Source of the DNA: a virus
IMG/VR virus record: IMGVR_UViG_3300011414_000001
Coordinates: 1 to 49,402 of that record
Direction: 5' to 3' (one strand)
DNA: 49,402 bases
Positions 86-49,402 of this stretch are shown here, in pieces (position 1 is the stretch's first letter; each line of letters begins with the position of its first letter). The notes beneath the pieces were generated by a model that saw only the letters and a list, made by a program, of their open reading frames with translations, was not told the DNA's origin and searched no databases. Both the position numbers and the translations under genes were made by a program.

Positions 86-379
86 ATGGCTAAGACTCCG
101 AGTCTGGAACGCCTCTTCACCTACCACCCGCCCTTCGGCACCCAAGCCGACCGCTACGTCGCCATCCGTCAGGCGGCCCTGGCGTTCGCCCAGGTCGTGC
201 GGGACTACACCCCACCGTCGCGTGAGCAGTCGCTGGCTCTCACCGACATCCAGCGTGCCTGCCAGATGGCCAATGCCGCCATTGCCGTCAACGAAGTCGA
301 AGCGGTCGTCCCGACCGCTGACGTCGAATCAGTTCAGTCAACGGTCGCTGCAGCGACCACCAATCAGGAGCAGAACTAA
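86..379 (+). CDS. acb2: Acb2-type anti-CBASS cyclic-nucleotide sponge
   Basis: This 97-aa protein carries the Acb2/Tad1 hairpin signature in its first 70 residues: FTYHPP, then RYVAIRQAAL, then SREQSLALT and a final ANAAIAVNE. Phage Acb2 proteins are small helical hairpins that assemble into hexamers and bind cyclic di- and trinucleotide messengers, blocking CBASS and, in some relatives, Thoeris signalling in the cytoplasm. The last 25 residues are low-complexity Ala/Val/Thr/Gln and look like a disordered tail. The ATG follows AAAGGA by three bases. It is the first complete gene here and sits 2 bases before the SSB-like gene, so it should be expressed early. The family call rests on motif order and length; ligand range cannot be read. 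Confidence 0.82.
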   Translation: MAKTPSLERLFTYHPPFGTQADRYVAIRQAALAFAQVVRDYTPPSREQSLALTDIQRACQMANAAIAVNEVEAVVPTADVESVQSTVAAATTNQEQN

Positions 380-1618: not shown

Positions 1619-2236
1619 GTGATCGTTACGCCGACTCCCTTTGACCTGAACTTGATGCAGCATGCCCCCGGCGCTGTCCGGGGTGTCGGGCTGCACATGA
1701 GCGACATCTACGGGGCGCTCTACAAGGAGTTGGAACCCAAGCGCTACGACCGTCTACAGACCGGCACCCTGGCTGAGAGCGAGAACAAAGCGGGCTTCAT
1801 GGGCATCGGCATGGCGTTCGAAGACATGTTGGAGAAGGCGCTGAGGGACAGACTCACGGAAGGTTCAGGCAGACCTGACGAACTCACTGAGTCTGAATAT
1901 GGCATCATCTACAACCCTGACTTAGTGATCTTCAACGGTTCCACCCGAGTAGGCGAAATCAAGCTCACATGGATGAGCAGCAAAGGTTTCCCCCGCGAAC
2001 AGGCCAACGGGTTTCCACCCAAGGCTGACAAGTATTTGACCCAGATGATGGCCTACTGCCGCTGTCTGGAGACTCCGTATGCACGGTTGTATGCGTGCTT
2101 CGTGAATGGGTCCGGTAGCTTTAAGGACCAGTTTGGCCCGTCACTGATGGCCTGGGACATCACGTTCACGTCCCGAGAACTCGAAGAGAACTGGCGCACG
2201 TTGATTTCGTATGCCAAACAGAAAAGGATGCTTTAG
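1619..2236 (+). CDS. PD-(D/E)XK nuclease (RecB/Cas4-like)
   Basis: This 205-aa protein has the core of a PD-(D/E)XK nuclease: a helix with AFEDML (E68), then PDLVIF (D101), then GEIKLTW (E113, K115), followed by a Gln-rich helix with Tyr (YLTQMMAYC). This arrangement is typical of RecB-like and Cas4-like phage exonucleases that resect DNA ends for recombination. I chose the GTG at 1619 because the preceding tiny gene ends two bases before it and the conserved protein starts there; a longer reading would overlap two upstream genes. The stop abuts the ATG of the Sak4-like ATPase, so exonuclease and annealing-type ATPase are likely partners. Confidence 0.75.
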   Translation: MIVTPTPFDLNLMQHAPGAVRGVGLHMSDIYGALYKELEPKRYDRLQTGTLAESENKAGFMGIGMAFEDMLEKALRDRLTEGSGRPDELTESEYGIIYNPDLVIFNGSTRVGEIKLTWMSSKGFPREQANGFPPKADKYLTQMMAYCRCLETPYARLYACFVNGSGSFKDQFGPSLMAWDITFTSRELEENWRTLISYAKQKRML

Positions 2237-3016
2237 ATGACGAAGACTGGCATGAACCCGTTCGCTCGATACACCAAAGCCACAACCGATATCAAACCCC
2301 GCATTATCGCCGCATCCTTCGGTGAAGTGGGGACAGGCAAGACATCGTTTTGGCTGGGTGCGCCCGCTCCCATCGTCATTCAGACACTCGATCAAGGGCT
2401 CGAAGGTGTAGTCGAGACCTACGCAGCTGACAAGGACATCTACATCGCGGAGTATGACCTGGGCCAGCGGATGGGTGAGGACTATACGCATGCGAAGGCG
2501 GTTGAAGCTCGCGACAAGTTCGTCTCTGACTTCGAAGTGGCGATCACGAATGCCCGCACCATCGTGTGGGATCGTGAGACCGATGTGTTCAAGCTGTTTT
2601 TCTTCGCGGAGTTCGGGACGGATGATGCGTTCGCCGCTGCTCCACCCAAGGACTGGGACAAGCTGAAGGGCAAGATTCGCCGGCTCATCTCGATGGCCAA
2701 AGCGTCTGATGTGAACTTCGGTCTTATCCAAGGTATGAAGAACGAGTGGGGGCAAAAGGTCAACAACAAGACGGGCGCGAAGGCGGCCACACAAACCGGC
2801 GCTCGCATTGTGGACGGCATGGACGGGATTGATGCGCTCGTTCACGTCAATCTCGAACACACCAGAGTGAATGGTGAGATGGCAATCACGATAGGCAAGA
2901 GTCGAGGACCGGGTGGGCGCGATATTCAGGACCAGACGTTTACCGGCGAAATGGCGACGTTTCAGTCGCTGGCGATGATGGTGTTTCCAGACTCGAATGA
3001 GGAGGATTGGCTATGA
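2237..3016 (+). CDS. Sak4-like RecA-fold ATPase
   Basis: This 259-aa P-loop protein has Walker A GEVGTGKTS (residues 29-37) and a Walker B-like strand TIVWDRE around residue 112. Length and motif placement fit the phage Sak4 or 'AAA-family nucleotide-binding protein' group, RecA-fold proteins that work with SSB in single-strand annealing. It starts directly after the stop of the PD-(D/E)XK nuclease, and a GAGGAGG site within its 3' end serves the next gene through an ATGA overlap. With the SSB-like and nuclease genes this makes a plausible exonuclease/annealase/SSB set. The Sak4 label is by motif and context; a DnaC-like loader is less likely. Confidence 0.7.
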   Translation: MTKTGMNPFARYTKATTDIKPRIIAASFGEVGTGKTSFWLGAPAPIVIQTLDQGLEGVVETYAADKDIYIAEYDLGQRMGEDYTHAKAVEARDKFVSDFEVAITNARTIVWDRETDVFKLFFFAEFGTDDAFAAAPPKDWDKLKGKIRRLISMAKASDVNFGLIQGMKNEWGQKVNNKTGAKAATQTGARIVDGMDGIDALVHVNLEHTRVNGEMAITIGKSRGPGGRDIQDQTFTGEMATFQSLAMMVFPDSNEEDWL

Positions 3017-3228
3017 GACTGCCCCTCGTGAAAACTCGTAACTACGCTACTCACCCAGTGCTTGGAGAGGAGAACAAATATCCACTCGCACGGGCATGGC
3101 GTACAGATGTTGGGAAGGCTACGGTAGTGTTCGTTCGAGATGGACACTCGCTGGCTCTGGTGCTTGACCGCGCTGAACTCGAAGACATCGCGGACATGAT
3201 GCAAGAAATCGTGAAGGACTGGAGATGA
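3013..3228 (+). CDS. Small hypothetical protein (71 aa)
   Basis: I do not recognise this protein. It is predicted as short strands with a C-terminal acidic helix (ELEDIADMMQEIVKDW). The ATG at 3013 overlaps the Sak4 stop (ATGA) and follows a strong GAGGAGG, so I preferred it over a TTG six bases upstream. Its own stop overlaps the next start in the same way, placing it in the coupled replication operon. Confidence 0.6.
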   Translation: MRLPLVKTRNYATHPVLGEENKYPLARAWRTDVGKATVVFVRDGHSLALVLDRAELEDIADMMQEIVKDWR

Positions 3229-3374
3229 AGTTATCTACACTGAAATCCGAAGTCACCGTCCCCAAGACTATCAAGCAATTCGCCTTGCTGCTTGCCATTC
3301 TTGAGCAGATGTATGCGGGTGAGCGGGAGAAGACCATCAAGCACATTGCTCGTTACTATGGAGTGACGCTGTGA
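3225..3374 (+). CDS. Small hypothetical protein (49 aa)
   Basis: This 49-aa protein starts in an ATGA overlap with the upstream stop and ends in a GTGA overlap with the downstream gene. The product looks like two short helices; the second (EKTIKHIARYYGVTL) resembles a minimal helix-turn-helix half, but that is too little to name a fold. The double overlap is the best evidence that it is translated. Confidence 0.55.
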   Translation: MKLSTLKSEVTVPKTIKQFALLLAILEQMYAGEREKTIKHIARYYGVTL

Positions 3375-3634
3375 CACCCCAGAACCTCTTCAAGGTCCGC
3401 ACTGAACTGCTGGTTTTAAGCAAGCAACTCATCGGGTCTTTAGTCCCCGGTCACGCTCGACAGGGTGAGCGCTTCAACTTCTCTTCTGACCACTATGCGC
3501 TCGAAGCGTGGGAGCGGATGACGACTGGTGGACTGAAGGTCCCCTGTCTGTCGGGATATCTCAACGCTCATGCAGTAGAGTCGCCCGTATTTCAATGGGT
3601 GTTGGACGGCAGTATTCATGCCGAGTGGCGATAG
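3371..3634 (+). CDS. Hypothetical protein (87 aa)
   Basis: The start is GTG at 3371, overlapping the previous stop (GTGA), and the stop touches the ATG of the ERCC4-type nuclease. The protein is mostly helical with several Trp and Tyr residues (HYALEAWERM, SPVFQWVLDG). No family is recognised. Its position suggests an accessory role with the neighbouring nuclease. Confidence 0.6.
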   Translation: MTPQNLFKVRTELLVLSKQLIGSLVPGHARQGERFNFSSDHYALEAWERMTTGGLKVPCLSGYLNAHAVESPVFQWVLDGSIHAEWR

Positions 3635-4396
3635 ATGCTACTCGTTGATGGACGAGCGGGCTCCAAGGAGTTAATCGAACCTCTCCGTGAACTCGGTCTG
3701 CCGGTCTACAAGACCACCCTCGCCTACGGAGATATTGCCTTCGTCGGCAAAGGTCGAAAAGGTCGCCCTGTCGACATCGGCATCGAGTTCAAGACCCTGA
3801 ACGAAGCTATTGGGAGCATTCGAGATGGCCGACTCGCGGGTCATCAGCTTCCGGGCTTGAGTCCGTTTACGGAGCGTCCCACCTTTGATTACACATGGCT
3901 GTTGATCGAAGGCCATTGGTCCCATGACCGACAGGGACTCGTCTGCAGCTATTCCAAATACAAGCGTGAGTGGACGCCTGTGCCGGGGAAGATGAACGCT
4001 GCCGAGTTCGAAGGGCATCTCCTCACCTATTACCTGAATGCCGGCGTCATGGTGCATGAGACGAACTCGCGCCGAGACACGTTGCGGTGGCTCGTTCGCC
4101 TTTACCGCTGGTGGACCGACAAGTCGATGGACGAACACAAAGGCCACATGGCGATGCACAAGCCAACCACGTTCATTCCGCTCAACGAACGTCGACAAGC
4201 GATGACGCGTTGGCCGGGTGTGGGCGTGCGTGTCAGTCTGGCAGCCGAGCGGGCCTTCGGGTCGGTGTCCAATGCGGCTGCTGCGAATGCGCGTCAGTGG
4301 GAGGCACTGGAAGTGCTGGACAAGAACGGCAAGTCCAAGCTGTTTGGCATGAAGCACGCCGAGCGGGTGGTGGAGTTTCTACGGGGGACAAAATAG
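3635..4396 (+). CDS. ERCC4-type structure-specific nuclease
   Basis: This 253-aa protein begins with an ERCC4/XPF nuclease fold. D5 lies in LLVDGRAGS, D33 in YGDIAF, and E51/K53 in GIEFKTLNE, which takes the place of the ERK motif of XPF and Hef. A basic segment KGRKGR precedes the EFK strand. The C-terminal 70 residues (RWPGVGVRVSLAAERAFG) look like a helix-hairpin-helix DNA-binding domain. Such phage enzymes cut branched DNA or act in recombination-dependent replication. It abuts the upstream gene and overlaps the downstream GTG by one base. The catalytic set looks complete; substrate preference is inferred from the family. Confidence 0.75.
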   Translation: MLLVDGRAGSKELIEPLRELGLPVYKTTLAYGDIAFVGKGRKGRPVDIGIEFKTLNEAIGSIRDGRLAGHQLPGLSPFTERPTFDYTWLLIEGHWSHDRQGLVCSYSKYKREWTPVPGKMNAAEFEGHLLTYYLNAGVMVHETNSRRDTLRWLVRLYRWWTDKSMDEHKGHMAMHKPTTFIPLNERRQAMTRWPGVGVRVSLAAERAFGSVSNAAAANARQWEALEVLDKNGKSKLFGMKHAERVVEFLRGTK

Positions 4397-4599
4397 TGCC
4401 TGAATATCGAATCGTAGATACGGACAACTTCGGCAGCGACTATCCCAACGAGTCCTTCACTGAGGACGGGCCTTTTGAGACCTACGCAGAAGCCAGAGAA
4501 CGGTCCAGCGTGTTGAATGGAAACGCCGGCGATTGGAGCCTTCGTTACTACAAAGTGGTCTCACTCCCTTATACCTTGCAGCCGGGGTTCGAGCCGTGA
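4396..4599 (+). CDS. Small hypothetical protein (67 aa)
   Basis: The GTG start shares one base with the nuclease stop (TAGTG). The 67-aa product has a beta-type start (VPEYRIVDTDNF), an acidic middle (FETYAEARERSSVLNG) and a short C-terminal strand pattern (WSLRYYKVVSLPY). It resembles small single-domain phage proteins of unknown role. Its stop overlaps the methyltransferase start in GTGA. Confidence 0.55.
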   Translation: MPEYRIVDTDNFGSDYPNESFTEDGPFETYAEARERSSVLNGNAGDWSLRYYKVVSLPYTLQPGFEP

Positions 4600-5177
4600 A
4601 ACGCACCAAGGGTACACGACGGCCACTTGATGCCTACTATACGCCCGCATGGATGACGCGAGCGCTCATAGCGCATGTGCCAGAAATTCGGGGCAACGTC
4701 ATGGAGTGCTGCGTCGGAGACAAATCAATTGATGCCGTGCTGGTCAAAGATAGCGACTATGACGTGCTTTTTACCAACGACATCGATCCAACGAAATCTG
4801 CCTATCGCCATCTCTGTGCATCGGACCCGCATCTCTACAAGGACCTAGATGTGGATTGGGTCATCACCAATCCACCCTATGCCATGCCCCTCTGCACGAA
4901 CATCGTGGCCAACGCGATCAAGCATGCTCGTGTGGGTGTGGCCATGATGCTGCGTATCTCGTTCGAAGAACCAACCGCAAAGGTCAACCCCCGAGGTCCG
5001 TTCCTCGAAGCCAATCCACTGACTCGTAAGCTGGTAATGCCCCGGCACAGCTTTACGGGCAACGGCAAGTCTGACAGTGCGACGACCGCATGGATGATCT
5101 GGTCGAAGGTGCCACTGTCAGGGGCGCCGATGTTGTCGCTGTATCGAGCGAACGAATTATACGCGAGGCCATTCTAA
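4596..5177 (+). CDS. DNA adenine N6-methyltransferase (NPPY type)
   Basis: This 193-aa protein shows a SAM-dependent N6-adenine methyltransferase core. YYTPAWMTRALI near residue 15 is the common N-terminal helix; MECCVGDKSIDAVL stands for the SAM-binding loop; FTNDID is the following acidic strand; WVITNPPYAMP carries the catalytic NPPY at 92-95. The glycine-rich motif I is poor (CVGDKS instead of a DPFCGSG-like loop), so activity needs checking. I used GTG 4596, which overlaps the upstream stop (GTGA). No restriction enzyme or target-recognition domain is nearby, so it is more likely a solitary modification enzyme protecting phage DNA. The stop overlaps the polymerase start (TAATG). Confidence 0.7.
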   Translation: MKRTKGTRRPLDAYYTPAWMTRALIAHVPEIRGNVMECCVGDKSIDAVLVKDSDYDVLFTNDIDPTKSAYRHLCASDPHLYKDLDVDWVITNPPYAMPLCTNIVANAIKHARVGVAMMLRISFEEPTAKVNPRGPFLEANPLTRKLVMPRHSFTGNGKSDSATTAWMIWSKVPLSGAPMLSLYRANELYARPF

Positions 5178-7228
5178 TGGCGAATGCGCTGAAGGGAACC
5201 CTCGATTTTGAAAGCCGCAGTGCTTGTGACCTAAAGAAGCATGGCACCTGGGTTTACTCACAAGACCCGTCGACCGAAATCCTGTGCATGGCCTTCCGTC
5301 TCCCCCACTGGCCGAAAGACAAGACAGCGATCTGGCACCCAATCTACCGCAAGTTCGATATTGAGGACGAAGGCGACAGCGCTGAACTCGTCGAGCTATT
5401 CAAATGGATTCAAGCCGGGGAACTGGTCGAAGCTCACAACAGTTGGTTCGAATACGGTATGTGGAGGAATATCATGGTTGTCCGCTACGGATGGCCCGAG
5501 GTTCCCGACCATCAATGGCGCTGCTCTGCGGCTAAAGCTGCCAGTCATGCGCTTCCTCGCGGACTCGATGACGCATGTTCAGCCCTGATGATGCGGATTC
5601 GTAAGGACGCCAAGGGCTCGAAGGTCATGATGAAAATGACCAAGCCCCGGAAGCCCCGCAAGGCTGAACTCGAAGCATGGGTCCTCAAGCACGGAAAGAA
5701 GAAGTCACACCCCCGTGTCTATCATGAAAGCTTCGATCTGTTCGTCCAGCTGTGGGCGTATTGTTGTCAGGACGTCCTGGCCGAGGAAGCTCTGTCCGCG
5801 ATGATCCCCGACCTGAGCCCAGAGGAAACGGAACTCTATCTGTTAGACCAGGCGATCAACGCTCGTGGCTTCCAGCTCGATAGTGAGGCGGTAGAGACGG
5901 CGTTAGCGCTCATTGCCAAAGAGACCGTTGTTCTCAACGACGAGCTGAAGGTCCTGACAGGTGGCAAGGTGGACAAAGCGACCAAGCGTGCTCAGATGGT
6001 CGCGTGGTTCGCAGAACACGGGCTAGCGGTCGAGAACACCCAAGCGCTCACCTTACAGGAGATGTTGACCTGGGACTGGCTGCCGGCTGATGTCCGTCGT
6101 GGTGTCGAGCTGATGTTCATGCTAGGCAAGTCGAGCACAGCGAAGTACGAAGCCATGCGCAACTGGTCAATTGGTGACTGGCGTGTGCGCGGGGGACTAC
6201 TCTATCACGGTGCGTCGACTGGACGCTGGACGGGCAAAGGCGTCCAACCCCACAATTTCCCGAAAGGCGACAAGTCTGTCAGCGATATGGACTCGACCTG
6301 GGCACTACTCAAGACCAAGGACCGCGACGTGATCACGGGCGAATGGGACTCGGTGATGAAGCCGCTGTCCTATGCGCTCCGAGGCGCAATTGTGCCTTCG
6401 TCGGGAAAGCGCCTATTTGTTGCTGACTATGCCAGCATTGAAGCCCGCGTGCTGCTCTGGTGTGCAGACGACCAAGACGGACTCGATCTGTTCAGAACCA
6501 AAGGCGCGGACCCCTACTGCGCGATGGCCAGTGAGATTTATGGCTTTCCCTGCAACAAAGTGGAACACCCGAAAGAGCGACAGCTAGGCAAGGCCGCGAT
6601 CTTAGGCTTGGGCTATCAGATGGGCGCCAGTCGATTCGCGGATTCGGCTAAGACCTATGGGGTCATCATTGACGAAGACTTCAGTCGTGGGGTTGTAGAC
6701 GCTTTCAGGACCAAGTTCTGGAAGGTCAAGGAAATGTGGTATGCCCAGGAGAAAGCTGCGATTGATGCAGTTCAGAAGGGCAAATCCATCAAGTACGGTC
6801 CTGTGACTTGGAAGAAGGAAGGCTGGTTCCTCTACTGCTACCTTCCGAGTGGCCGGCGTCTCGCCTTCCCCAACCCCAAGGTCAAAATGACGAAAACGTC
6901 ATGGGGTACCGACAAACTCACCCTGTCCTTCTGGGGTGTCAATTCACTGACCCGTCAGTGGTGCGAACAGAGGACATATGGGGGCATGATCGTTGAGAAC
7001 ATCGTGCAAGCTATCAGTCGGGACCTGATGGCCGCCGCGATGATTCGGGCGGAAAACACGGGTATCTACAACATTGTGCTCAGCGTTCACGACGAATTGG
7101 TGTCTGAGGCACATCCCTTGCTGGGTGAGGTACATGCGTTCGAAGCGCTGATGGCTGAAGTTCCTGAGTGGGCGGTTGGTTGTCCGGTCGCTGCCGAGGG
7201 CTGGACTGGCGAACGTTACCACAAGTGA
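5177..7228 (+). CDS. Family A DNA polymerase with 3'-5' exonuclease domain
   Basis: This 683-aa replicative polymerase of the phage Pol I type lacks a 5'-3' exonuclease domain. The proofreading domain shows DFES (D10, E12), an Exo II-like EAHNSWFEYGMW and an Exo III-like YCCQDVLAEEAL. Polymerase motif A is VADYASIEARVLLW (about 415-428), motif B KAAILGLGYQMG (about 471) and motif C LSVHDELVSEA (about 635-645). The ATG at 5177 overlaps the methyltransferase stop; an in-frame start 87 bases upstream would run through the end of that gene. A basic insertion (KMTKPRKPRK) lies inside the exonuclease domain. All catalytic residues expected for synthesis appear present. Confidence 0.95.
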   Translation: MANALKGTLDFESRSACDLKKHGTWVYSQDPSTEILCMAFRLPHWPKDKTAIWHPIYRKFDIEDEGDSAELVELFKWIQAGELVEAHNSWFEYGMWRNIMVVRYGWPEVPDHQWRCSAAKAASHALPRGLDDACSALMMRIRKDAKGSKVMMKMTKPRKPRKAELEAWVLKHGKKKSHPRVYHESFDLFVQLWAYCCQDVLAEEALSAMIPDLSPEETELYLLDQAINARGFQLDSEAVETALALIAKETVVLNDELKVLTGGKVDKATKRAQMVAWFAEHGLAVENTQALTLQEMLTWDWLPADVRRGVELMFMLGKSSTAKYEAMRNWSIGDWRVRGGLLYHGASTGRWTGKGVQPHNFPKGDKSVSDMDSTWALLKTKDRDVITGEWDSVMKPLSYALRGAIVPSSGKRLFVADYASIEARVLLWCADDQDGLDLFRTKGADPYCAMASEIYGFPCNKVEHPKERQLGKAAILGLGYQMGASRFADSAKTYGVIIDEDFSRGVVDAFRTKFWKVKEMWYAQEKAAIDAVQKGKSIKYGPVTWKKEGWFLYCYLPSGRRLAFPNPKVKMTKTSWGTDKLTLSFWGVNSLTRQWCEQRTYGGMIVENIVQAISRDLMAAAMIRAENTGIYNIVLSVHDELVSEAHPLLGEVHAFEALMAEVPEWAVGCPVAAEGWTGERYHK

Positions 7229-8121: not shown

Positions 8122-8439
8122 ATGGGTACCCTATTCCTTTCCATCCTGTTGACTATTCGGGTCTCTGTGGGCATGTCGCCACTGAAAACGACCGTCAACA
8201 TCAGGACCGATGAAGAGTTCCTGGCGGGCACGGTCTGTCTGATTTGGGAATCCGATGGGGAAGCCGCCACCCCAGGGTCCAACTGCTGGACGGTCAGCGA
8301 GGCTGACCGTCATGGGTGGACGAAAGAGATTGTGCTGCGGACGGGTCGCTATGAAGTGTGGGTTACGACTGTCGGACAAGACACGAAAGGGAATGCATTC
8401 TCGAAGGTGTCCACACACCGAACCGTCGAAGTCTACTGA
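8122..8439 (+). CDS. Hypothetical protein with hydrophobic N-terminus
   Basis: This 105-aa protein begins with a short hydrophobic stretch (GTLFLSILLTIRVSVG) that could be an uncleaved signal anchor. The rest is beta-rich (TVCLIWESDGEA, GRYEVWVTTVGQD), suggesting a small Ig-like or sandwich fold. It is the last gene of the rightward replication operon; its 3' end overlaps the integrase 3' end by seven bases in convergent orientation. No family recognised. Confidence 0.55.
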   Translation: MGTLFLSILLTIRVSVGMSPLKTTVNIRTDEEFLAGTVCLIWESDGEAATPGSNCWTVSEADRHGWTKEIVLRTGRYEVWVTTVGQDTKGNAFSKVSTHRTVEVY

Positions 8440-9686
8440 ACTTTCGGCATCTCAATCGCTTCCATCCCAAGCGCTTCTCGCACTTTGTTCTCGATGGCAA
8501 AGGCGACGAAGCGCTTTTCTGTTTCATACGCATGCAGGTTATAGACGCCTGCGACTCCTCCAATTTCATGGTCGATGTAGCGCTCCACCCAGTCGCGATT
8601 GCAGCCATACGCGTTGGCTGCAGTGGAGGCCCAACGCCGAAGATCATGTGGGTCAAACTCCCCCAGCTTGGCTCTCCCAACCATCTCCACCGTCTCCTTG
8701 GCGAAGAAGTTCGACCGAGCTTTCTCCCTGCCGTCGAAGCGTTTGATCGGGAAAACAAAGTCCTTGCCCGTGTCTGGGTGCGCCTGAATCTTCTTCAAGA
8801 TATCGAGCGCCATCGGACCCAACACAATGAGGTAGGGGTCCTGATGCCGGGTCGTCAGCCGACGCTTCCGAATGACAAACGGCTTGACCCAATGGTCGCC
8901 CGACAGCGTGCCCCACTGCATCCGTAAGACCTCGCCCCCTCGCTGAGCCGTCAGGGCTCGCAATTGAAACTGCCAACCCAGCATCGGCCGGCCTTCCTCG
9001 ATCCACGCGTCCCAGACCGCCCACAAGCGTTTGAACTCTTCAGTGGTTGGGAAGGACCTCCGTCCACCACCCAGATGTTTAGTCTCTGTGCCGAACGCCG
9101 GATTGCCCTGAATCTCGTCCCAGCCTTGGGCAATACCGAATTTGAAAATCTTGGAGATGAGGACGCGCACGATATCGGATGCTCGTGTGCCCCGGAGCGC
9201 AATAGCGGTCAGCACCTTGGCCGTGTCTCTCCTGGTGATGCTGCCGGCTGCTCGATCCCCCCACAGGGGCAGTAGTTCCTTGTTGATGAGGCGGATGTCC
9301 TCTCCCGGCCGCTTCTTCTTCGGTTTGGCGTGCAGCTCAATATACAGAGCCGCAAGGTCCTTGAACGCCCGCCCTGGCTGGCCAGCCTGCCCGCTGTGAG
9401 GCGTTCGGGGGTCCTGCCCAGCCCTGACTAGGACCGCTCCGTCCCGCACTCTCTGGCGGGCTTCTGACAGCCCACAGCCCCCAGGACCGAAGTAGCCCAA
9501 GATGTGGCGGATGGGTGCCTTCCCACCCGGCAGCCGGAAATAGTGGCTGAAGGTCTTCTTGCCAGTCGGATGGACCGTGACCGTGAGCCCTGGTTGCTTG
9601 GCGTCGAAGTATTCCTGACGTTTCTGGAGGGGCGTCAGGGCCGTCAGGGACCCTTGCGTGAACTCGAACTTCAGGATGGAAGACAT
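8433..9686 (-). CDS. int: Tyrosine-recombinase integrase (P4/prophage type)
   Basis: This 417-aa integrase has the usual layout: an N-terminal arm-binding domain (about 1-95), a core-binding SAM-like domain (about 105-205) and a catalytic domain. Catalytic residues are R249 in AQRGGEVL, H347 and R350 in DPHDLRRW, H373 in IDHEIGG and the nucleophile Y382 in GVYNLHAYETEKR, a spacing typical of tRNA-targeting integrases. It lies three bases after the zinc-ribbon gene, on the same strand, with attP immediately upstream of that pair. It would insert the phage into the 3' end of a tRNA-Thr gene. It converges on the replication operon, overlapping its last gene by seven bases. Confidence 0.95.
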   Translation of the reverse strand: MSSILKFEFTQGSLTALTPLQKRQEYFDAKQPGLTVTVHPTGKKTFSHYFRLPGGKAPIRHILGYFGPGGCGLSEARQRVRDGAVLVRAGQDPRTPHSGQAGQPGRAFKDLAALYIELHAKPKKKRPGEDIRLINKELLPLWGDRAAGSITRRDTAKVLTAIALRGTRASDIVRVLISKIFKFGIAQGWDEIQGNPAFGTETKHLGGGRRSFPTTEEFKRLWAVWDAWIEEGRPMLGWQFQLRALTAQRGGEVLRMQWGTLSGDHWVKPFVIRKRRLTTRHQDPYLIVLGPMALDILKKIQAHPDTGKDFVFPIKRFDGREKARSNFFAKETVEMVGRAKLGEFDPHDLRRWASTAANAYGCNRDWVERYIDHEIGGVAGVYNLHAYETEKRFVAFAIENKVREALGMEAIEMPKVQ

Positions 9687-29419: not shown

Positions 29420-30352
29420 TTAGACGTACGCCACACCGAGGCGCGACTTGTTATTGGTGATCGTCTGCAGAGCCGAGTAGATTTTCGTGACGAACCCGTT
29501 GGCGTTCGGCAATTCCTGGACGTCTCCACGATCCCGGAAGTATTCCTTGCTCGCGACGAGCTGGAAGTTCTTCGGGTTGAGGAAGAACACGCTGGACGTG
29601 CCGTACTGACTGAACACGTAGCGGCAGGTCTTGAAGCCGAGGGTCTTGAAGCCCGCCTTCAGGTCCTGACTGTCCACCCAACGCTGGTTCGCCTGCTGCG
29701 TGCCCTCGAAGATGGCCTGTGTGGCGCCATCCGAGACCATCAGGGTCGGGACCAGCTTCGCACCGGAGCCTTTGGCACTGGCGTTGTAGACGGTCGTGAA
29801 CGCCGACTCGATGTCGGTGTCGTTGACATACTGGCTCGCCTGATTGCGCCAGAAGACGTTGGTGGCCGCATCGATGCCGCCGTCTGTGCCCTGACCATTG
29901 GTCGGGACGTGGGTCAGCAGACCGAGGAAGCCGTTCGTCGAGGTCGCGAACAAATACTGCTCGATGATGTCGTCGTGCGACTCGATGCCGTTCTCCAACA
30001 GTGACTTGACCAGAGCGATCTTCTGGTTCTCGCTGGAGTTCTGGACTTCGTCTTTCTTCGACCACACGATGGGGACGGAGACTTCGGCAATCGCGAACGA
30101 AGCCGAGGTAATCGTTTCCGTCTTGCTCAGCGACGTCGCCTGCATGTCGGTCGCAAGAATCGCGGTACCCTGGTTACGCTGGTAGTCGAGGGGGGCTTCA
30201 ATCGTCGCACCGAGTGACTTCTTGACGAGCCCGCCCTGACGTTCGAGTTCGCGCATGAACGCACTCTCGGCCCACTGATTGGCCGGTTTGCGCATCTCCG
30301 CGAGGACGGCAGGATACGACACTGCCACGATTTGACTGATGGAAAGAGCCAT
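29420..30352 (-). CDS. Major capsid protein (HK97 fold)
   Basis: This 310-aa coat protein has an N-terminal helix (SISQIVAVSYPAVLAEMR), a segment rich in Arg/Gln/Gly, an E-loop-like acidic part, a long spine-helix region (IALVKSLLENGIESHDDII) and an A-domain-like C-terminus with FFLNPKNFQLVASKEYFRD. Length and order behind a scaffold gene match podovirus coat proteins of the HK97 fold. A GGGAG ribosome site precedes the ATG. Its own promoter, overlapped by a double operator-like dyad, lies upstream at 30475-30547, consistent with high and controlled late expression. Confidence 0.8.
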   Translation of the reverse strand: MALSISQIVAVSYPAVLAEMRKPANQWAESAFMRELERQGGLVKKSLGATIEAPLDYQRNQGTAILATDMQATSLSKTETITSASFAIAEVSVPIVWSKKDEVQNSSENQKIALVKSLLENGIESHDDIIEQYLFATSTNGFLGLLTHVPTNGQGTDGGIDAATNVFWRNQASQYVNDTDIESAFTTVYNASAKGSGAKLVPTLMVSDGATQAIFEGTQQANQRWVDSQDLKAGFKTLGFKTCRYVFSQYGTSSVFFLNPKNFQLVASKEYFRDRGDVQELPNANGFVTKIYSALQTITNNKSRLGVAYV

Positions 30353-35112: not shown

Positions 35113-36870
35113 TTATGCCGCGAGATTCCTACGGCGTTGACGTGGCCGCATCCAGGGTTTCAGTTCTGATTCGTTGTTCGGGCGACTAGCTGGTGCCATA
35201 CCCATGCAGAAGTACGCGAGCGCGACCGTCCAATGGTCCTCACCATCAGCCAGTTTCGCCGGATTCAGCTTGTCTCGCTGCTGGTGGGGAAGCGTGCGAA
35301 GCAATTCCTTGCAGCCATAGCGGGTTTTGCCCTCAGCCTTGACGATCTGGAGCTTCGGTCGATCCACATGCGTTTGGTCCGTGCCCCAGTTGACCCGTTC
35401 GGTCAGGAACTCGTTAATCGAATACCCGAACATCTCGCGGTCGTTCGTGGACGCTGTGAGAGGAACCCCGTTGGACTCGAACTTGTCCGCAATCGAAAAC
35501 ATCGACTGCCCGGTCTCAATGAACATCGTGGGATCGCAGAACGTCTCAACCACATGCATGCCCTCGCTAGCGGTCTTGATGTCTTTCGCCACATTCTCCG
35601 CCAGGGTCTTTTTCCACGTCATCTCCTTGAACACGATAGCGGCCTTGTTCGGCAGCACCGCAATCCACAGGCAGACTGCTGGGTCCGGCGAGTAGCCCCA
35701 GTCAACTGCCCGATAGATGGACAGCCAGTTCAGGCTGAAGATAGGCATCCCCTGCCAGCGGGGAACGTCATCGATCACATGCCAGGGCAGCTCAATTTCG
35801 TTGTCCTCGCTATCGCCTACCAGCATCGTGGGGAAGAAGTCCTCGAAGTAGGCTCCTTCATTGACAAACTCGCCCTTCAGCCATGCGCGTCTCACATGGT
35901 CGGGCAGATTCTTCAGCCGGCTCTCATACTTTTTCTTGTCCAAATACTCGTTGTCATCCAGTGTGCTGAACTGCATGACGAACTCGTCAGGCAGATAGTC
36001 TGGGTAGTCCTCGAACCGCACCACATGGTCGACAAACCACGCCTTCATCCACAGTGAGCCAATGCCGAGCGGGTTCGAGCCACAGCGAACAACAGCGTCA
36101 TAGCCTTCCCCCTCTGGGGCACGAGCAGCGGCTGAAATCTGCAGGAACTGGTTCAGCGTAAAGGTCGATAGTTCGTCAAACCCGATGAACCCGTATTCGC
36201 TCGATAGAAAGTTCAGAATGTCTGCTTCGGTCTCGCAGTGGGCGAAGGTGATGGTACTGCCATTCGGAAATACCGCTTGGAACGTGGTTTTCAGGAACGT
36301 CCCGCCCAACTGCGTCATCTCGAAATCGATCATCGAGAGATGGGACTTTCGCAGTTCTGGCATGGTTCGCCGGATGATAAGCGCCCGGAAGTTGGGGATC
36401 ATCATGCAGCGAATGATGGCGTCCCACCGCAGCCACTTGGATTTGCCGGTACCCCGTGTGCCTAGACAGAGCAGGTTGGGTGCATCGCATGCGTGTGCGG
36501 CGATCTGGTAGGGCTGTGGCGTGTAGGGCGCCCGACGTTTTCCATCCTCACTCGTAACTACGACCGAAACCACAAAACATTCACTACACAGATCACAGTC
36601 GTAGCAGATGTTTGGCGGGAGTCCTGCCTTAGCCCGTCGCTTCGTACACTTGCTGCAAGACGTGAGGGCTGCTGGAGCTGCGCTCTGGCCTTCAGGGAGG
36701 GGGGAGTGGGGTGGGGTTAGTAAACTAACCCCCCCACCCCCCACCCGTTCAGAGGGGCTTTCTAAACCGGGAGGGAGGGGACTCCCCATAGGGGAAATTG
36801 AGGTTTTGGGAACCTCAATTGGGTCCTTTTTCCTTTTGGGGGAAAACTTGTGGCCTTTTTGGAACCCCAT
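35113..36870 (-). CDS. terL: Terminase large subunit with Cys-rich N-terminal extension
   Basis: This 585-aa packaging motor has Walker A LGTRGTGKSKW (136-146), Walker B FIGFDE (228-233) and a nuclease Asp in AVDWGYSPDPAV (D390). The first 125 residues are an extra part: a basic start, a Gly/Pro/Ser linker, and a six-Cys cluster (C72, C75, C89, C92, C95, C98) likely binding zinc. The start overlaps the small subunit stop (TAATG). The DNA coding the linker folds into two strong hairpins. ATPase drives DNA translocation into the head; the nuclease makes the packaging cuts. The zinc cluster could contact DNA or the small subunit. Confidence 0.92.
   Translation of the reverse strand: MGFQKGHKFSPKRKKDPIEVPKTSISPMGSPLPPGLESPSERVGGGGVSLLTPPHSPLPEGQSAAPAALTSCSKCTKRRAKAGLPPNICYDCDLCSECFVVSVVVTSEDGKRRAPYTPQPYQIAAHACDAPNLLCLGTRGTGKSKWLRWDAIIRCMMIPNFRALIIRRTMPELRKSHLSMIDFEMTQLGGTFLKTTFQAVFPNGSTITFAHCETEADILNFLSSEYGFIGFDELSTFTLNQFLQISAAARAPEGEGYDAVVRCGSNPLGIGSLWMKAWFVDHVVRFEDYPDYLPDEFVMQFSTLDDNEYLDKKKYESRLKNLPDHVRRAWLKGEFVNEGAYFEDFFPTMLVGDSEDNEIELPWHVIDDVPRWQGMPIFSLNWLSIYRAVDWGYSPDPAVCLWIAVLPNKAAIVFKEMTWKKTLAENVAKDIKTASEGMHVVETFCDPTMFIETGQSMFSIADKFESNGVPLTASTNDREMFGYSINEFLTERVNWGTDQTHVDRPKLQIVKAEGKTRYGCKELLRTLPHQQRDKLNPAKLADGEDHWTVALAYFCMGMAPASRPNNESELKPWMRPRQRRRNLAA
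36713..36732. repeat. Near-perfect palindrome in the terL 5' region
   Basis: GGGGTTAGT-AA-ACTAACCCC, a 9-bp stem with a two-base centre, lies inside the linker-coding part of terL and is surrounded by G- and C-runs. As RNA it could slow ribosomes or the polymerase early in terL. Confidence 0.6.
36796..36820. repeat. Perfect 10-bp inverted repeat in the terL 5' region
   Basis: AATTGAGGTT (36796-36805), a 5-nt loop and AACCTCAATT (36811-36820) form a perfect stem about 50 bases inside terL. On the minus strand it is followed by CCCCTATGGGG. It is the second strong hairpin in the first 160 bases of the gene. Confidence 0.6.
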
Positions 36871-48380: not shown

Positions 48381-48771
48381 ATCTCGGAATGCACGGAAGA
48401 AGCGGCGTGTGAAGTTGAACCTGAGCCGAGCACGTCGAGCGCTGCAGCAACAGACCGAGGCCCGAGTGCAGGCGCATGCGACCTTGCTTATGGTCCTGAG
48501 TCAGGCTGGCGGCGAGGTCACGGTGAGTCAGGCGACCATGCAGACGGTCCTGCAGGGGATGCAGATGTTGAACTGGGTGACGGAGGCCAAGACCGATAGC
48601 GAGGGCAACACGGTTGCCGGCGAGTTCATTGTGCGGGTCATCACGCAGGAAGGCGTGCAGGCGGTTGTGAACGAAGCGATTGAGGCTGCTGCTATCGTTC
48701 CTGACTCTGTGGAGATTCCGGTCAACCCGGGCACTACTTTTTCAGACCCTATGGACGCATCGGTCATCTAA
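48370..48771 (+). CDS. Conserved hypothetical protein before the helicase (133 aa)
   Basis: GTG 48370 follows AGGAG. The 133-aa protein has a basic N-terminus (RNARKKRRVKLNLSRARRAL), a central helical part with LLMVLSQAGGEVTVSQAT, resembling a winged helix, and an acidic C-terminus. Its stop overlaps the helicase start (TAATG), so it may be a loader or partner. Function not recognised. Confidence 0.55.
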   Translation: MASESRNARKKRRVKLNLSRARRALQQQTEARVQAHATLLMVLSQAGGEVTVSQATMQTVLQGMQMLNWVTEAKTDSEGNTVAGEFIVRVITQEGVQAVVNEAIEAAAIVPDSVEIPVNPGTTFSDPMDASVI

Positions 48772-49402
48772 TGGGCTCTCGTCCCCGACAGTTCACCCTG
48801 ACAGCCCCAGGACCACTGCGTCTCTACAACACCCTGGAGCTGCTGAACATGCCCGCCCCGACATGGCTGATTGAACCAGTCCTGCCGATGGGCGGGTTGG
48901 TCGGGATGTATGGGGCGCCCGAAACGTGCAAGAGCTTCATCGCGATTGACATCGCATTGTCAGTCAGCACGGGGACGCCCTGGCAGGGGCTAGAGACGCA
49001 AAGAGGATTTGTCGTTTACATCGGTGCGGAAGGCGGAGCTGGTCTCGGCAAGCGGGCACTCGCGTGGTTGGTCACTCATAAGATCGAGCCGACTGAAACC
49101 GATATCGCGTGGCTCATTGAGAGCGTGCCTCTGTCAGCAGGCTCAGACGAGATTGTCACTCTACTCGAACGGATCGAAAACGAAGTCAATCGCGAACCAT
49201 CGTTGATCATCGTGGACACCATGGCGCGCTGCTTCTACGGCAACGAGAACGAAACCGAAGACATGGGCCAGTTCATTGCGGGCGTCGACATTCTCCGTAA
49301 GCGCTTCGGCTGCACGGTGCTGGTCATTCACCACACGCGATTGGATGGGGGGCGGGAGCGTGGGGCGACGGCATTCCGTGGTGGTGTCGACACCATGGTC
49401 AA
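48771..49402 (+). CDS. RepA/DnaB-fold AAA helicase, 5' part (cut by window end)
   Basis: The visible 210 residues form a RecA-fold ATPase of the RepA-like type: LNMPAPTWLIEPVLPMGG, Walker A GAPETCKSF (48-56, K54, S55), strand FVVYIGAEGGAGLGKR, Walker B SLIIVDTMARCF and sensor CTVLVIHHT followed by RGATAFRGGVD. The Walker A lacks the usual Gly-Ser/Thr-Gly before Lys, as in some RepA-like phage helicases. The ATG overlaps the previous stop. It should be the replicative helicase or primase-helicase unit. No stop is reached before the window ends. Confidence 0.8.
   Translation, partial: MGSRPRQFTLTAPGPLRLYNTLELLNMPAPTWLIEPVLPMGGLVGMYGAPETCKSFIAIDIALSVSTGTPWQGLETQRGFVVYIGAEGGAGLGKRALAWLVTHKIEPTETDIAWLIESVPLSAGSDEIVTLLERIENEVNREPSLIIVDTMARCFYGNENETEDMGQFIAGVDILRKRFGCTVLVIHHTRLDGGRERGATAFRGGVDTMV

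Follow-up and report, generated by a model that had tools for sequence, protein, structure and literature searches.

Does the short gene at the edge of this phage sequence encode a sponge for immune cyclic nucleotides, and is it part of the replication machinery encoded next to it? The window analyzed here is a stretch of 49,402 nucleotides that comprises positions 1 to 49,402 of the IMG/VR record IMGVR_UViG_3300011414_000001. It is a fragment of a probably temperate phage, encoding an integrase (8433-9686), a major head protein (29420-30352) and a terminase (35113-36870).

A short gene of the Acb2/Tad1 hairpin family

The open reading frame extends exactly from position 86 to 379 of the + strand, from an ATG to a TAA codon, and encodes a protein of 97 amino acids. 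The four motifs that the initial annotation had quoted are present in the order given there (FTYHPP, residues 11-16; RYVAIRQAA, 23-31; SREQSLALT, 45-53; ANAAIAVNE, 62-70), and the frame is a real gene. The nearest relative, record IMGVR_UViG_3300043353_000046 (L002), was used as the reference for omega values and for gene layout. Its homologue is 80% identical to the 97-amino acid protein, and the omega value of 0.16 over residues 1-70 reveals a purifying selection that supports the coding frame. The start at position 86 is supported by small indels between the window and L002, which break the frame right before the start codon. An AAAGG motif is located 5' of the start in both genomes, as part of a probable ribosome-binding site (positions 73-85, + strand, AAAGGACAC) ahead of the ATG, with its L002 counterpart (AAAGGTTACA) placed ahead of a GTG. 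In L002, the sequence immediately 5' of the gene showed no sigma-70-like promoter, a result that weighs little for a phage of this kind.

The family of the protein was studied by profile searches. The Pfam model of the Acb2/Tad1 hairpin (PF24729) matched residues 12-67 with 52.4 bits (E 6.2e-14, profile positions 1-57 of 58), well over the curated cut-off of 27 bits, so the membership proposed in the initial annotation holds; T4 Vs.4/Acb2 is matched by the same model with 71.4 bits. In addition, 69 viral sequences of the family were aligned, and a leave-out profile was made with the 67 members that remain when the 97-amino acid protein and its L002 relative are excluded. This profile gave 99.7 bits for the protein, and 2,000 shuffled versions of it reached at most 8.8 bits. 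None of the other six-frame ORFs in the window came close to this score, and no second sponge gene was found there. When the family profile was compared with the PDB, the entry named "Acb2 homolog 43" (9ptq, six chains) was detected with an E value of 1.5e-4, and the Tad1 chains more weakly, with an E value of 0.014. A profile-profile comparison with tevenvirus Acb2 gave a probability of 84.7 (E 6.7e-6), with an alignment that spanned the C-terminal hairpin. The 97-amino acid protein had no match in PADLOC or NCBIfam, and a direct phmmer search of the PDB with it yielded no sponge, only a chance fibronectin match.

The closest group is that of the short FTYHxP phage proteins of PHROG 1454, an unnamed family that the protein matches with an E value of 1e-12. 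These are direct homologues, with 46-52% identity over the domain and conservation motif by motif, exemplified by gp20 of Gordonia phage ChisanaKitsune, gp67 of Paenibacillus phage Sitara and gp101 of Tunturiibacter phage Tunturi_1. They differ from the protein of the window in that most of them have no tail, in being annotated only as hypothetical, and in their varied gene contexts. "Acb2 homolog 43" is also short (76 amino acids) and carries an xREKSxxxTxLEEAMxxA motif, but its match begins after the FTYHxP region and it does not have Asn63; no publication on this entry was found in the literature searched. Acb2-like genes have already been named by annotators in actinobacteriophages (PMC13348362, PMC11953737) and the domain is named in Pfam, so this is a known kind of protein and a fairly ordinary addition to the Acb2 family. 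The expected pattern, with Acb2-like genes widespread in phages and some already annotated as such, is in this respect confirmed.

Predicted fold and residues of the putative nucleotide pocket

The AlphaFold2 model of the monomer consists of a short helix (residues 7-10) and two long antiparallel helices (20-41 and 46-69), with a pLDDT of about 93-99 in the core. This is the same layout as that of the Acb2 protomer, described as a short helix followed by two long ones (PMC12043709). The best-matching named viral structure models were Acb2/Tad1 hairpin proteins (best E 2.4e-4). A Foldseek search against the PDB ranked T4 Vs.4 first, although not significantly (E 2.0, probability 0.72), thus lending weak support, as could be expected from a helical hairpin of around 60 residues, which makes a poor query. 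The start of helix 3 (codons 45-63, positions 218-274, + strand, SREQSLALTDIQRACQMAN) carries a motif in common with Tad1, SRExxxALTxxEEAxMWxN (SRENACALTHVEEALMWMN), as deduced from the profile match to the Tad1 chains and from column conservation, and conservation within this helix is highest in its SREQSLALT region.

We propose, with a probability of around 0.7, that the gene encodes a short, non-enzymatic sponge of the Acb2 family that would sequester cyclic oligonucleotides from CBASS-like defences. By analogy with the members of known structure, a small hexamer would form from the two-helix hairpins, and the pockets between its subunits would hold the cyclic oligonucleotides that CBASS-like enzymes of the host produce as alarm signals, in such a way that the effectors would stay off during phage replication, as with the sequestration by the Acb2 proteins of T4 and Pseudomonas.

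The residues that could sustain this function were compared with those of T4 Vs.4/Acb2 (PDB 7UQ2), a protein with the same Pfam domain and helical topology. The T4 protein has about 20 more residues between its two halves, the overall sequence identity is very low, and the 27-residue variable tail is an addition of the 97-amino acid protein. In T4 Acb2, the base-stacking residues are Y8 and F82, the polar contacts come from Y8, H11, K23 and R79, and the hexamer interface involves L29, A66, A73 and A77 (PMC10097602). When the motifs are placed in register, the three interface alanines correspond to A51, A58 and A62, and L29 to F34. Y8 is kept as Y13 and T68 as T53, and K23 is replaced by R28. 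By contrast, three of the five side chains that contact cGAMP are not kept, as A67, A64 and P16 take the places of F82, R79 and H11. The aligned residues thus retain the surface used for assembly and some of the pocket, but do not reproduce the known dinucleotide pocket of T4, and because of the lost contacts the ligand specificity of the T4 protein cannot be transferred. These losses do not disqualify the protein as an Acb2, since known homologues vary in their ligand range (PMC12043709).

Ala64 and Ala67 are almost invariant across the short FTYHxP family, at the positions where T4 Acb2 has R79 and F82, which suggests a different pocket in the whole branch. The patterns used to collect the sequences contained F11, Y13, H14 and P16, which explains in part why these residues are invariant, whereas Q20, Y24, R28, A51, A62, N63 and A67 were absent from the patterns. 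As a tentative extension, this branch may have lost the dinucleotide pocket of T4 type and acquired a different specificity, either for trinucleotides only or for another immune nucleotide. If so, many phage proteins now called hypothetical would form a distinct class of sponges, and the loss of the T4-type cGAMP contacts across the branch offers a testable hint of ligand diversity among uncharacterized Acb2-like proteins.

A specific form of the sponge reading, possible but well short of an even chance, is that the protein mainly binds a cyclic trinucleotide, for instance cA3, instead of cGAMP, at the hexamer's trimer ends and in the region of the conserved SRExS..A.T motif. The conservation of the SREQSLALT stretch and its presence in Tad1 argue in this direction, as do the losses of the stacking F82 and of the salt-bridge residue R79 used for dinucleotides. 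R46, within the SREQS motif, aligns by position with R67 of the Pseudomonas p26/Acb2 chain, a residue that we take to be part of the trinucleotide site and to contact trinucleotides, and that we use as a lead only. Separate trinucleotide pockets are present in both Acb2 and Tad1 (PMC12043709). On the other side, a dinucleotide pocket built in a different manner from Y13, H14, Y24 and R28 could replace that of T4.

Genomic context and alternative roles

The gene is followed, 2 nt downstream and in the same direction, by a gene for a 277-amino acid protein (382-1215, + strand), which has no significant Pfam or PHROG match and is 85% and 53% identical to its homologues in two relatives. Its predicted structure is of low confidence, with a C-terminal winged-helix-like part, and the protein is possibly a new phage DNA-binding replication protein; the model was considered too uncertain to name its function. 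Further downstream (1619-7228, + strand) there are replication and recombination genes for a RecB/Cas4-like nuclease, a Sak4-like ATPase, an ERCC4 nuclease and a family A DNA polymerase.

The initial annotation placed the gene at the head of this operon, a position that turned out to be the edge of the contig, as only 85 bases of the window precede the gene. Upstream of it in L002, and in the same direction, there are genes for a replication ATPase homologue and, farther away, for a helicase of the UvrD type and a DNA methyltransferase, which makes the gene internal to the operon. The counterpart of the first of them is found at the other end of the window, where a replication ATPase/helicase-primase-like gene (48771-49400, + strand) is cut by the right end. 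Both ends of the window (48771-49402 and 1-85) fall in a single operon in L002, at around 3-4 kb from each other, and this layout implies that the ends of the record lie within the replication operon and that a helicase and a methylase region are missing from it.

The association with replication genes, also claimed in the initial annotation, holds for this lineage only. A third phage (L114) has the same operon, with the 277-amino acid gene at 53-54% identity followed by the nuclease and Sak4-like genes, but no member of the Acb2-type family was detected in its 58.6-kb record, and an unrelated ORF of 103 amino acids fills the slot. In other phages, family members are found near head, tail, glycosyltransferase, exonuclease, recombination or Sak4 genes. 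The absence of the gene from the same operon in L114 indicates that it is optional cargo inside an otherwise conserved replication operon, and not part of the replication machinery.

This distribution also bears on a role that we regard as unlikely, that of a small replication or host-takeover protein in which the hairpin would serve as an oligomerization scaffold without binding any immune nucleotide. The 2-nt distance to a co-directional gene of the replication operon would fit such a role, and so would the breadth of a family in which most members are uncharacterized. Against it are the absence of the gene from its slot in the L114 operon, with no copy detected in that record, the many unrelated contexts of its relatives, and the conserved polar residues Q20, Y24, R28 and N63, which are hard to account for by scaffolding alone. 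Less probable still is an anti-Thoeris sponge resembling Tad1, with signals of the gcADPR type as its ligands, as Tad1 (PDB 7uav, 8kbb-8kbh, 8smd) has an N-terminal antiparallel beta-sheet before its hairpin (PMC12043709) and chains of 123-138 amino acids, whereas the 97-amino acid protein is a hairpin only, all helical and with no strand predicted by AlphaFold2, even though its C-terminal motif is closer to that of Tad1 than to that of tevenvirus Acb2 and a single Pfam model spans both families.

The Acb2-family sponge remains our preferred reading, and the presence or absence of the gene within one operon fits with an accessory counter-defence gene, which would add a likely function of this kind to an uncultivated temperate phage. 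A SMODS CD-NTase was detectable in 4 of the 19 genomes carrying relatives, a count that has no background rate and was not used as evidence.

Two further ORFs were noticed. The 103-amino acid ORF of L114 (2638-2949 of that record) has RRM_3 as its best Pfam match, just under the cut-off, and the slot that it occupies is a variable accessory site that could hold other counter-defence genes. In the window, an ORF of 73 amino acids (3007-3228) showed a match to AcrIIA4 of 15.5 bits, below the Pfam cut-off of 27, and this identity was not credited, the match being probably due to chance.

The C-terminal tail

Beyond the hairpin domain, the protein ends in a tail that the initial annotation described as 25 residues rich in Ala, Thr and Gln. 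The tail exists, but it is 27 residues long (71-97, positions 296-376, + strand), and its most frequent residues are Val (6), Ala (5) and Thr (4). No evidence for a function of this segment was seen. With a pLDDT of about 55, the model points to a probably disordered tail. The omega value with respect to L002 is 0.59, and the L002 tail is longer by an insertion of roughly 10 residues. Fewer than 10 residues follow position 70 in 61 of the 69 family members, with 10 or more in the other 8. By these comparisons, the tail is a fast-evolving and weakly constrained segment.
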